NCBI RefSeq assembly: GCF_000689395.1
Contig: NZ_HG966617.1
Location: 1,126,753 to 1,190,752 of the forward strand
Source: Candidatus Phaeomarinobacter ectocarpi
GTDB taxonomy: Bacteria > Pseudomonadota > Alphaproteobacteria > CGMCC-115125
Direction of reading: 5' to 3'
DNA length: 64,000 nt
The translations under genes were made by a program, and so were the position numbers. Numbering within the stretch: position 1 is the stretch's first letter; every line of letters starts with the position of its first letter. This document shows, one piece after another, positions 14,887 to 18,783 of this stretch. Under the pieces are notes generated by a model that was given only the letters and a program-made list of their open reading frames with translations, searched no databases and had not been told where the DNA came from.

Positions 14887-14918
14887 GCGTCCGCATTGTC
14901 CTGAGGGGCAGACAGAGA

Positions 14919-14947
14919 AAAGGGCTCCTCGCAACGAGGAGCCCTTT
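14919..14947 (+). terminator. Intrinsic terminator after aspS
   Basis: A 13-bp perfect stem runs from 14919-14931 to 14935-14947 with a CAA loop. It starts with AAA and ends with TTT, so it could work in both directions between aspS (+) and the NrdJ-like gene (-). It starts 33 nt after the aspS stop. Confidence 0.8.
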
Positions 14948-15024
14948 AGTCGTCTTGGGGTATCTTTGTTTATGCGAAAAACCGCGCTTGGGGGGCTTGG
15001 TTGCTCGCGCCTTCTTAAGGTGGG

Positions 15025-17868
15025 CTATTCCTCTCGGGGGCGGCCTGAAACGCTGGGGGGCGAAAGGGCCGGGTCACCGAAAGCTCGTGAGGGGTTCGGT
15101 ACCGGTGTGTCGGTACTGCTCCCAATTTCTTCTGAATTTTGAACATGGCCTGATCTTGTGTGGGTGCTGCGCACCAAGGGCGCTCGACCTTCTGTGGCCG
15201 CAAGACTCGCTCCACCATCGAAGTTGTCTGATGGTGCTGACTCCGCGTCCCGCAGACCTGATTGGTTCAGATACGATGAGGCCAGCATTGAAAGGGCACT
15301 GCCCAGGACATCACATCCGTCAGGTGTAGAAAGGTCTGAGAATGCCGTCTGAAATGCCTCGACGGGCACACCATGCTTCAAGCCCAATGAAATCGCAGCA
15401 TTGAGAGCTGCGTTGTCAGCCGACGGCTGAGCCGGCACCGGCAGGTCATCTGATTCAATTGAGCGCACATAGGCATTGTCGGCGATATCCGAATGCAGAT
15501 CATCCAGCGGCTCGCCAAAAAGGTCGTCTACCAGATCATCATAGTCCACAGCATCGCCAAGGGCCGCACCGTTCCGGTTGAGACGGAGTGATCTCAGCCC
15601 CATGTCTTCTGCCTGCTGATAGAGCGCGCGGATGCCGTCAACAGTTGTCTCGCGGCGAAGCTGCAGATCAAGAGCCAGACCATCCGTCAAAAACGGTTGT
15701 ACAGCCTGCGCCATCAGAAGCCGATCTGCAGGGCTGACATGGCGCGCTCCGATTTCGCCAAGCGGCTCATCGCAATCAAACACCGGCAGATGTTCGATGG
15801 GTAAGTCTCTTGATCCTTCAAGGGTCAGAGCGCCACAGCAATGGAAATTGGCGTGTTCAATATCCCAGTTCGAGAAACCCAATCCTGCCAGAATGTCTTC
15901 ATCGCTCTGCGCGCAAAAGTCCCCATCCCAGCCCAGCACGTAGGGAGTAAACACTGCCCGAATGTTGCTCGCAGTCGCTAACGCGCTTTCAGTGACTTCA
16001 ATGTCCTCGTCGGTGAATCCTCGTGAACGCAGAATGTCATAATTGACCCCAGGTGCTCCGTGCAGGGATCCGCGCCCGACCAGATGATCCAGAATGGAGT
16101 CGATCGACGCGTCGTCATGCCGAAGCGCGCGAAGGCCCAGGGGAACCGCTGGTGACACGACCTTGTAAATTGCCTCAGCGTCCAGCTCTGGAGTCAGCCG
16201 TCTGTACTTAACAAGTGTTCGGACAGGCGAGAGGGCTGCAGACTCGGCGCCCAATAAATCCATAAACACAGTGTCATTCGACACAGTCGTTAGCGCGATA
16301 TTGCGAAGCCCTGTCTCTTCCGCCTTTTCAATGGCACGGTCCAGAATGTCCCGTACCGCCTGCACTATGGCTGCCTGCTGGGGTGTGTGCGGATAAAGCG
16401 GCGGTGATGGAAGTGCGCTCCATTCACTTGGGTTCCCAAGCAAAGCGCTCTGCATCCGACGCAGAAGCGCAGCAGCTTCTTGTTGAGAGTTGTTTGCCGT
16501 GGCCGGCGCAAGTTCCGCTGCCAAACCCGCGCTTGTTGCAGCTGTAGCTGCTGTAACCAGACCGCAGATGGATGCTGCAAGGGCGCGCCCCTCGTCAGAA
16601 CCATACGCTACGCCCTGGCTCATGAGCATTGCAGCAACGTTCATGGGAGCAACCGCAATCGGCCGCAGGTCAGACGCCACACCGGCTTCATCATGCGCAA
16701 CATCCAGAGCGATCGTCAGCAGGCGGATGGAATGCACCAATCCATCGATGTCTATAGGTCGGCTAGCCCCAATTGTTTCAAGGTCCGGCATCGTGAATGC
16801 CAGCAAATCGACAGCCCCTGACGGCGTAAATCCTGCCGGAGCCGCAACGCCACTGGGTGTCAGGGCAAGCTGGTCAGCTGGCGTAAGGCTGGCGCCGCGC
16901 AACGACTTTTCAAAGCACACACCCGGCGCACCGCCTCGCAAAGCCGCGAGGGCAAGGGGTTCTGTCCACGTTTCATCACACGTGTCTGATTTGCGCACAG
17001 CATATGGCGTCTGAGTGCCCAGGAGGTCCCAGATGTCAGAGTCGTCATCCAGATGTGTGTCAGCGTCGGGCCAACTGTCGTCCCCGGCAATCCATTCATC
17101 CAGCAATCGCCGAGCCACAGCGGCAGGCAAGCCTCTCGCCCTGGCATCCGCCAGGGCAGCTTCCAGAGCACGATTCGCGCCCACGCTTGGACCGCCATCG
17201 GCCAATGCCTGCTTGATCGACTGCGTGAGGTCCGAAAGAGAGTTGCGACCAAGAGCCAGGGCCGCAGCGTCTTGCTCCCGGCGGGCATCAGAGGCAATAC
17301 GCGTCAAAAACCCGTCGCTGCTGATGCTGTCGCTTGAGGAAAACGAAACACAGGCCGGTTCATCTCCCGAACTCGTCACCGTGCTTGGCCCGTAACCATA
17401 CGCCCAGTCCCGACCGACCCGCTGCCAGGTCTCAGACGAAAGCGTGATCTTCTGCAAGACAAGCGCGGCCCGCAGTTCGTCATGGAACGCCAGGGCATCT
17501 TCTGGACCATCAAAATAGCCGGCGATCAGACCTTGCCGAGCCAGACCGCCCGCGACGCGATCAAGCGCGTTTCTCACATCAATTTCATATGTGAGGGCTG
17601 GTTCGTCTGATTTGCTGTCGCTTTCCAGCGCGCTGAACCGACGTAAGGCAGAAGGGATGTCTAGTTCGTGGAGCTGACGGCGCGCGCTGGGAACGGCCTC
17701 GTGCAGAAGAGCGTATTCACTGAATGTCGTGACGACACTTACCGGCCACGTCCCAGGCGCAAAGACCCACTTCGTATCGCCGGTCGCATCTTCAACGCGA
17801 ACGCGCCGGAAGCGCTGACCTGAGTAGGGGCCCGTTGCTGTATCGGTAAAATAGCGTCCGATCTGCAT
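15025..17868 (-). CDS. NrdJ-like pseudoenzyme (degenerate B12-dependent ribonucleotide reductase)
   Basis: 947 residues from ATG 17868, which has GGGGGCG six bases upstream. The text aligns with class II ribonucleotide reductase NrdJ over its whole length: RYFTDTATGPYSG (5-17), the GYFDGPEDALAFHDELRA helix (117-134), GVAYGSDEGRALAA (419-432), ADNAALNAAISLGLKHGVP (817-835), and the block HCCGALTLEGSRDL...EHLPVFDC (676-699). Catalytic parts are missing. The N-P-C-S-E active-site motif reads T-P-S-G-V (337-341), so the Asn, thiyl Cys and Glu are all replaced. The second redox Cys is Ser350. The PTGT loop reads SNDT (530-533), the GTGTNFS segment is deleted and there is no zinc ribbon. Cys173 (PACV) remains. 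It is unlikely to reduce nucleotides; a regulatory or structural role in the Nrd system is inference, supported by the NrdR boxes upstream. Confidence 0.85.
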   Translation of the reverse strand: MQIGRYFTDTATGPYSGQRFRRVRVEDATGDTKWVFAPGTWPVSVVTTFSEYALLHEAVPSARRQLHELDIPSALRRFSALESDSKSDEPALTYEIDVRNALDRVAGGLARQGLIAGYFDGPEDALAFHDELRAALVLQKITLSSETWQRVGRDWAYGYGPSTVTSSGDEPACVSFSSSDSISSDGFLTRIASDARREQDAAALALGRNSLSDLTQSIKQALADGGPSVGANRALEAALADARARGLPAAVARRLLDEWIAGDDSWPDADTHLDDDSDIWDLLGTQTPYAVRKSDTCDETWTEPLALAALRGGAPGVCFEKSLRGASLTPADQLALTPSGVAAPAGFTPSGAVDLLAFTMPDLETIGASRPIDIDGLVHSIRLLTIALDVAHDEAGVASDLRPIAVAPMNVAAMLMSQGVAYGSDEGRALAASICGLVTAATAATSAGLAAELAPATANNSQQEAAALLRRMQSALLGNPSEWSALPSPPLYPHTPQQAAIVQAVRDILDRAIEKAEETGLRNIALTTVSNDTVFMDLLGAESAALSPVRTLVKYRRLTPELDAEAIYKVVSPAVPLGLRALRHDDASIDSILDHLVGRGSLHGAPGVNYDILRSRGFTDEDIEVTESALATASNIRAVFTPYVLGWDGDFCAQSDEDILAGLGFSNWDIEHANFHCCGALTLEGSRDLPIEHLPVFDCDEPLGEIGARHVSPADRLLMAQAVQPFLTDGLALDLQLRRETTVDGIRALYQQAEDMGLRSLRLNRNGAALGDAVDYDDLVDDLFGEPLDDLHSDIADNAYVRSIESDDLPVPAQPSADNAALNAAISLGLKHGVPVEAFQTAFSDLSTPDGCDVLGSALSMLASSYLNQSGLRDAESAPSDNFDGGASLAATEGRAPLVRSTHTRSGHVQNSEEIGSSTDTPVPNPSRAFGDPALSPPSVSGRPREE

Positions 17869-17912: not shown

Positions 17913-17928
17913 CCACTATATTTTGTGG
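17913..17928. promoter_or_regulatory. NrdR box 1
   Basis: CCACTATATTTTGTGG fits the NrdR consensus acaCwAtATaTwGtgt at 13 of 16 positions, including every strongly conserved one. It lies 45 bp before the start of the NrdJ-like gene, and its minus strand holds a TATAGT that could be a -10 element. Confidence 0.75.
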
Positions 17929-17943
17929 CTACACGCACATGGT

Positions 17944-17959
17944 TAACAAAATATGGTGC
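17944..17959. promoter_or_regulatory. NrdR box 2
   Basis: Read on the minus strand this is GCACCATATTTTGTTA. It shares a 13-base arm (one mismatch) with box 1 in inverted order and keeps the conserved C, A, AT, T and G positions. Its centre is exactly 31 bp from the centre of box 1, about three helical turns, which is the usual spacing of paired NrdR boxes. Confidence 0.7.
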
Positions 17960-18180
17960 ATATATGGCCTCCCGGTCAAGACATCTATGTCGACCTGGGA
18001 ATCTTCGCCATTCACGTCAGGGAAAGAAAAATCTGAGGCGTTAAGCAGTCTTAAGGCGATTCGGGTCAGACTGCCCAGCATGTCGGCAAGAAACTGCCGC
18101 GTGGAGTGAAGCAATTTTTGGAACGCAGGCTGTGTTTAGCCACGGCGGACCAAAATGTCGTTGGGGTGAGACAGGCAAGA

Positions 18181-18783
18181 ATGCCGGGGAAAGATCTGAA
18201 ACCAGGGCTTGGCGTTCTGGCGGGCGTGGGAATTGTTGCAGTTGACGACAACGCAAACACCCGACGGCTGCTGAAAGAGTTGCTTCTTGCTTTTGGGACA
18301 CGCGACCTGAGGATTGCCGGAGACGGCGCGACCGCACTTGAGATGGTCAATGCCAAAACGCCGGACTTGATCCTGTGCGACTGGCATATGGAACCAATGG
18401 ACGGCATCGCGTTTCTCCGCCATCTACGCCATAAGGACAGCGGCGCTGCCGCTCGCACACCTGCGATCATGCTCACAGCTCACACCAAGCCTGAGGTTGT
18501 AAAGGCGTCAATGGATGCCGGTGCCAACCATTTTGTTGCAAAACCAATTGTGCCGGCAAATCTCCTCAAACGTATCCAGTGGGTGAGGGCCGACAAGCGG
18601 ATTTTCCTGCTCGAGGGTGATCACTACGTTTTGCGTGATCCTGGCGATATAGCGCCCCGCGCTGGTGCGACAGGGCAACAGGCCAAAAAGCCCTCTACAC
18701 ATGCGCCTAAACCACCTGCTCCGGCGCCATCAGCCGCTATTGCCATTGAAGACGTGGATGCAGAGGAAGTCTGGGAAATCTAG
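18181..18783 (+). CDS. Single-domain response regulator with Pro/Ala-rich tail
   Basis: 200 residues from ATG 18181; a GTG at 18106 would add 25 unrelated residues. One receiver domain fills residues ~15-135: the acidic pair in VAVDDNANTRRLL, the phospho-acceptor Asp in LILCDWHMEPMDG, the switch Thr in AIMLTAHT and the Lys of FVAKPIV. A tail of Pro, Ala and Lys ends in EDVDAEEVWEI, and there is no DNA-binding or enzymatic output domain. No histidine kinase is nearby. It is divergent from the NrdJ-like gene; a functional tie is unproven. Confidence 0.88.
   Translation: MPGKDLKPGLGVLAGVGIVAVDDNANTRRLLKELLLAFGTRDLRIAGDGATALEMVNAKTPDLILCDWHMEPMDGIAFLRHLRHKDSGAAARTPAIMLTAHTKPEVVKASMDAGANHFVAKPIVPANLLKRIQWVRADKRIFLLEGDHYVLRDPGDIAPRAGATGQQAKKPSTHAPKPPAPAPSAAIAIEDVDAEEVWEI

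Follow-up and report, generated by a model that had tools for sequence, protein, structure and literature searches.

Why should a bacterial genome keep a long open frame descended from a ribonucleotide reductase (RNR) if the encoded protein is predicted to be unable to reduce ribonucleotides? The question is raised by a gene on the minus strand of the window, by which we mean the whole 64,000-nucleotide stretch that was analyzed, from the genome of Candidatus Phaeomarinobacter ectocarpi, a marine bacterium associated with algae. Its frame runs from an ATG at 17868 to a stop codon at 15025-15027 (15025..17868, minus strand) and encodes 947 residues. An earlier note had described the product as a catalytically dead NrdJ-like protein, inferred to be a partner or controller of the genuine NrdJ or else to hold cobalamin or nucleotides. 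Computation established a loss of catalysis, the status of sole NrdJ, an origin in place, purifying selection and a conserved NrdR-type promoter. The answer that we favor, with middling confidence, is that nrdJ was converted in place into a retained, non-catalytic protein that binds a partner and so regulates or scaffolds dNTP supply.

A divergent descendant of class II NrdJ

The source genome is complete (one contig, 3,415,905 bases) and, as G000, forms our genus sample together with three further Candidatus Phaeomarinobacter genomes (G001, G002 and G003); an ortholog of the 947-residue protein is present in all four. A phmmer comparison with the R. sphaeroides NrdJ (7b9p) gave E=9.5e-64. The HMM search proposed in the earlier note recovered the NCBIfam NrdJ model PRK07562 with E=7e-83, yet the score of 279 bits lies well below the cut-off of 1737 bits for genuine NrdJ. 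Pfam matched the N-terminal class II domain (PF08471) and part of the barrel domain. The former corresponds to residues 1-160 (17389..17868, minus strand), which are modeled with a pLDDT of about 85-97 except at residues 81-90.

Structure prediction, likewise proposed in the earlier note, was done with AlphaFold2 from 56 alignment rows that included canonical NrdJ rows, and yielded a model with a pLDDT of 70 and a pTM of 0.68; a model from 12 rows was poor (pLDDT 55). In a Foldseek search the 56-row model retrieved the R. sphaeroides NrdJ (7b9p) first, with E=1e-36 and TM 0.63/0.66, an outcome that the canonical rows favor. Confidence is high for the N-terminal domain and for much of residues 346-760 but low for residues 162-195 and 767-816 and the tail. 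Residues 144-349, where the first half-barrel is expected, are essentially strand-free, containing only a two-residue bridge and single residues. The Pfam, NCBIfam, phmmer and Foldseek results together place the protein in the NrdJ family by descent, on homology and on a shared fold that the canonical rows guided, and its homology to R. sphaeroides-type class II NrdJ is far beyond chance. The NrdJ-like character claimed in the earlier note is thus borne out, on the minus strand, but its statement that the protein follows NrdJ block by block from residue 5 to 870 overstates a real homology, as most of the first half-barrel (canonical positions ~175-300 and ~385-425) is gone. Relative to the R. 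sphaeroides-type NrdJ (PRK07562; PDB 7b9p/7b9q), which is its top structural match, the N-terminal domain and the second barrel half are homologous, but the protein has 947 rather than ~1230 residues, coexists with a class I NrdAB and is without the thiyl Cys, redox pair, phosphate loop, loop 1/loop 2, dimer helices and zinc tail.

Loss of catalytic and allosteric elements

Alignment to canonical NrdJ showed that the thiyl-Cys finger-loop motif NPCSE is replaced by GVAAP at residues 340-344 (16837..16851, minus strand). The four genus copies have GVAAP, GVAAP, GEPAA and DVSAD at the NPCxE position, so that the catalytic Cys is missing from every one of them, whereas the canonical nrdJ loci checked carry NPCxE (for one of these loci the reading frame was chosen by that motif). 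V353, a Val invariant across the four copies, occupies the place of the second redox Cys, and the first (HACFIQ) falls within a deleted or unalignable segment in all of them. The APTGT phosphate-binding loop aligns to S530-N-D-T-V534 (16267..16281, minus strand) and reads SNDTV, SDDTV, SDDAD and PADED in the four copies. The GTGSNFS segment and the loop-1 region are deleted or unalignable, the substrate/loop-2 segment SGQNSNNSVRV is deleted and the C-terminal zinc ribbon with its redox cysteines is absent. The segments of the loop 1/loop 2 specificity site and of the dimer helices, the latter placed according to PMC9669993 and general knowledge, are deleted or unalignable in four of four copies, and the three orthologs share the loss of the same elements as the source copy.

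Several of these losses had been recognized in the earlier note, which rightly gave the replacement of PTGT by SNDT, the loss of a GTGTNFS-type segment, the missing zinc-ribbon tail and the retention of EHLPVFDC, intact at residues 692-699. Its alignment was displaced by one to three residues: NPCSE is indeed replaced, but by G340-V-A-A-P344 rather than by TPSGV at 337-341, and the partner redox Cys is replaced by V353 rather than by Ser350. The conclusion that catalysis is lost is unaffected by this shift. Characterized class I and class II reductases share one mechanism that needs the finger-loop Cys (PMC9669993), and since this residue is absent no ribonucleotide reduction is expected; judged by alignment, the NrdJ-derived protein would be incapable of working as a ribonucleotide reductase.

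The same losses bear on the notion that the protein serves as a sensor or store binding adenosylcobalamin or nucleotides. Descent from an adenosylcobalamin-dependent enzyme lends it some appeal, as does the report that Ca. P. ectocarpi Ec32 has a B12 importer but an insufficient set of B12 synthesis genes (PMC4110880). However, the half-barrel with loop 1 and loop 2 has gone, along with the finger loop and the phosphate loop, which makes the cobalamin or nucleotide holding suggested in the earlier note less likely, and we consider a sensor or store quite improbable.

A class I reductase and an origin at the ancestral nrdJ locus

Searches of the complete source genome and its three congeners detected no other NrdJ, which removes the partner that the earlier note had assigned to the protein. 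The class I NrdA encoded by the source genome has an intact MSNLCSE and, in its tail, CIACQ, and NrdB lies close downstream. The well-assembled genomes G001 and G002 likewise have this class I NrdA, with NrdB close downstream, and no intact nrdJ, while in the draft G003 the NrdA is interrupted by a contig end. These genes indicate that dNTPs in the genus would be supplied by class I NrdAB. The earlier note had held that its reading would fall if the gene were the only nrdJ in the genome; it is the only one, but with NrdAB at hand the protein can still be regarded as dead. A reason for the class switch might lie in the B12 auxotrophy that has been suggested for Ca. P. ectocarpi (PMC4110880).

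A C-terminally shortened class II gene is also found in the split class II RNR NrdJa/NrdJb (PMC9669993). However, NrdJa retains the catalytic barrel and is accompanied by a separate NrdJb, whereas the protein here is dead and no NrdJb/TSCPD gene scored above cut-off in the genus, and we excluded membership of this class.

The gene is flanked on one side by NDUFA12-mlaD-DUF2155-aat-accCB-aroQ-thiG-dsbA and on the other by aspS-rnd-ppx-ppk, and the same flanks surround canonical nrdJ in other families (loci L037, L038, L040, L041 and L043). In the phylogeny that the earlier note had proposed, built with canonical NrdJ, the four dead copies form a single group (SH-aLRT 100) on a very long stem, and the branching order within the group matches the aspS identities. 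The gene arose in place from the ancestral nrdJ. Profile scores across 385 alphaproteobacterial genomes exceed 1500 bits for the genus copies and are at most 305 for all others, with no dead-type copy found outside the genus in this set. A scan of genome contigs with the single protein gave no match, and an alignment-based scan recovered one copy in a Ca. Phaeomarinobacter MAG, the same as that of G003, and an ordinary distant actinobacterial NrdJ-like match. The NCBIfam family PRK06948 ('ribonucleotide reductase-like') was considered as a known dead relative and rejected, as none of 299 genomes had a member above cut-off.

Retention of the gene is not the default outcome, given that 15 of 59 relatives have an NrdA of the same kind and no NrdJ (8/59 have both). 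In relatives the switch to NrdAB was usually followed by complete loss of nrdJ; here the gene was remodeled instead. Among the sampled alphaproteobacteria the dead-reductase event is limited to one genus and took place in situ, and the relatives with NrdJ only, with both enzymes, or with NrdAB after clean loss provide natural controls.

Divergent from the dead nrdJ lies a response-regulator-like gene (18106-18783, plus strand), which is not at this place in G001 and is 65% identical in G002, where neighbors are mostly 88-100% identical.

Purifying selection and a preferentially retained region

Protein identity among the four genomes is 46-82%, as against about 70-99% for neighboring genes. 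For the two closest copies dN/dS (NG86) is 0.156 (bootstrap 0.126-0.189), falling to 0.058 (0.028-0.096) in residues 545-780, and seven neighbor genes gave values of 0.008-0.136. The protein is therefore less constrained than its neighbors, though not free of constraint. When neutral evolution was simulated to the synonymous divergence observed, none of 300 frames stayed open, with a mean of 29 stops. Evolution much faster than that of the neighbors and the very long branch might be taken as signs of a decaying pseudogene that is open by chance, but openness in four genomes at 46-82% identity, the simulated frames and the dN/dS interval speak against decay; this reading, to which we attach next to no credence, is refuted on present data. 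The gene is fast-evolving overall yet under purifying selection, as the earlier note had surmised from the intact frame.

The best-preserved region spans residues 546-725 (15694..16233, minus strand; largely within the 545-780 segment of low dN/dS) and includes CCGALTLEG and EHLPVFDC. It retains 33 of 62 canonical-invariant positions, compared with 15/91 in residues 346-545 and 8/97 in 162-345 (23/188 across 162-545). As the canonical-invariant residues concentrate there, this region appears to be a legacy of NrdJ, which suggests that a contact surface has been kept. Such a concentration of mostly old positions would also be expected if true NrdJ had from the outset served a further function besides catalysis, such as a contact of its C-terminal helical region, and if here only that function survived, with no involvement in NrdAB regulation. 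Against this, the 15 of 59 relatives with NrdAB and no nrdJ do without such a role, and new constraints are also indicated by 131 positions invariant in, and particular to, the dead clade. We regard an old second role as unlikely on balance, though it ranks next after the regulator or scaffold and deserves appreciable weight.

Promoter and predicted NrdR boxes

Upstream of the start codon we detected, on the minus strand, a pair of predicted NrdR boxes, the elements of a nucleotide-sensing switch. The start-proximal box, CCACAAAATATAGTGG (17913..17928), has 32/36 weighted matches, and the pair is conserved in three genomes. The distal box, GCACCATATTTTGTTA (17944..17959), lies over the -10; within it CCATATTTTGTTAAC is invariant in G000 and G002, and 13 bases of this invariant run are also shared by G001. 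In each of the three genomes whose sequence extends upstream, the starts of the two boxes are separated by 31 bp, leaving a 15-bp spacer that falls within the functional range of NrdR (PMC12051234), and none of 200 shuffles reached the score of the pair. They accompany a sigma-70-like promoter, TTGACC-18-CATATT (17950..17979, minus strand), for which the argument is conservation, both hexamers being invariant in three genomes, since chance alone would give one such match. The locus thus has two boxes with a spacer in the 14-17 bp range, and nrdR was found in four of four genus genomes, as in an NrdR regulon, so that NrdR probably binds the dead-nrdJ promoter.

Comparable pairs precede most canonical nrdJ genes of relatives, in which nrdJ lies at the same locus with the same promoter layout, and we therefore take NrdR control to have been inherited and kept. 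An inherited promoter says when the protein would be made and not what it does. Pairs with the 31-bp offset also precede nrdB in G000 and G002.

NrdR-like single boxes occur 5' of nrdA, about 270-530 bp upstream of its start (L045:6040-6560), with one belonging to a weak 31-bp pair; a further 31-bp NrdR-like pair is seen between nrdA and nrdB (L045:8880-8940).

Functional implications and inactive reductases elsewhere

The favored regulator or scaffold could have arisen as follows. Class I NrdAB would have taken over from an ancestral B12-dependent nrdJ in the Candidatus Phaeomarinobacter ancestor, and nrdJ, instead of being lost, would have been remodeled in place to a non-catalytic protein. 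With NrdR control persisting, this protein should be made under high dNTP demand. It may act through partner binding and not chemistry, most likely via the 546-725 surface shared with true NrdJ. We infer that cells produce this protein, that it works through contact with another protein and that this contact bears on dNTP supply. With the dimer helices and the specificity site deleted, it could not meet NrdA through the dimer contact usual in RNRs. What survives of the pseudoenzyme proposed in the earlier note is a dead, selected protein tied to nucleotide reduction by its NrdR-type promoter, while a real NrdJ falls away as its partner.

A close parallel is offered by the enzymatically inactive R1 proteins of betaherpesviruses, such as HHV-6B U28 (PMC11772975). 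These are conserved homologs of the RNR large subunit that have lost catalysis and, as the protein here may do, serve another purpose by binding proteins while another RNR supplies dNTPs; with them as the type of an RNR-derived pseudoenzyme, the protein here shares the loss of catalytic residues. However, the betaherpesvirus R1 is viral and targets host signaling, whereas the present protein is a class II descendant encoded on a bacterial chromosome behind an NrdR-type promoter. A literature search limited to open-licence papers found no bacterial class II dead reductase. The case makes it possible to test what a reductase offers beyond reduction, and whether the conserved C-terminal helical region of NrdJ has a partner.

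A conserved RNA-like element at the 3' end

The 3' end of the gene carries a conserved RNA-like element of ~170 nt (14914..15083, minus strand), which covers the last 20 codons, the stop codon and the 3' UTR with a mean column identity of 92% in four genomes. It contains two C-rich hairpin loops, CGC-CCCCCA-GCG (loop at 15054..15059, minus strand) and GC-CCCCCAA-GC (14988..14994, minus strand), both invariant in the four genomes, the former folding alike in all, and it ends in an intrinsic-terminator-like hairpin (14919..14947, minus strand) with an invariant 12-bp stem and a variable loop. Over the last 26 codons, identity at four-fold sites is 64-95%, as against 29-59% in the rest (p 0.0007-0.017). 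As synonymous sites are constrained too, the C-terminal peptide SPPSVSGR as a linear protein motif was rejected as the main cause. Folding of the gene strand exceeds that of shuffles (z=-3.9, and -2.4 to -3.4 without the terminator in four genomes), whereas the opposite strand without the terminator shows no excess (z=-0.05). One pair of the closing stem is U-A, U-G or C-G, a thin covariation seen across only four sequences. These features mark the element as a candidate 3'-end small RNA, which, if true, would be a new RNR-linked small RNA.

Rfam held no credible match to the element, and searches beyond the genus gave no homolog that has the C-rich loops. RNA-model matches in other families (L102, L103 and L107) were set aside, as they rest mainly on the terminator hairpin and are without the C-rich loops; L102 and L103 sit at the ends of unrelated genes. 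Hairpins exposing C-rich loops are also seen in Rhizobiales sRNAs of the SmelA075/SmelA099 type, which have CCUCCUCCC anti-Shine-Dalgarno loops (PMC3927594). However, the loops here are CCCCCA and CCCCCAA and the element overlaps a gene 3' end, and we did not assign it to the CCUCCUCCC-loop sRNAs.

It is conceivable that the locus is kept mainly for this RNA, the NrdR-controlled transcript being the source of a C-rich-loop small RNA from its 3' end and the protein being secondary. The conserved element over the stop codon, its invariant loops and terminator, the paired changes in its closing stem and the constraint on the four-fold sites would all agree with this. A 3'-end RNA nevertheless leaves protein-level selection over the remaining frame (dN/dS 0.06-0.16) unexplained, and pairing with the nrdA or nrdB leader proved no better than background (31/63 and 48/63), so that we hold this reading improbable. 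Similarly doubtful is a combined scheme, by which one NrdR-controlled locus, derived from a discarded nrdJ, gives rise to a half-barrel pseudoenzyme and also to a C-rich-loop small RNA from the 3' end, both acting without catalysis and jointly tuning the replacement class I reductase.

The segment CCATCGAGGGGGAGCAGAAGAAGTCATG of the nrdA leader could meet the C-rich loops, though its duplex test was not special; it is identical in three genomes (L045:6570-6600, L047 and L046), with divergence further upstream in G001. The nrdA leader also contains GAGGGGGAGC in three genomes.
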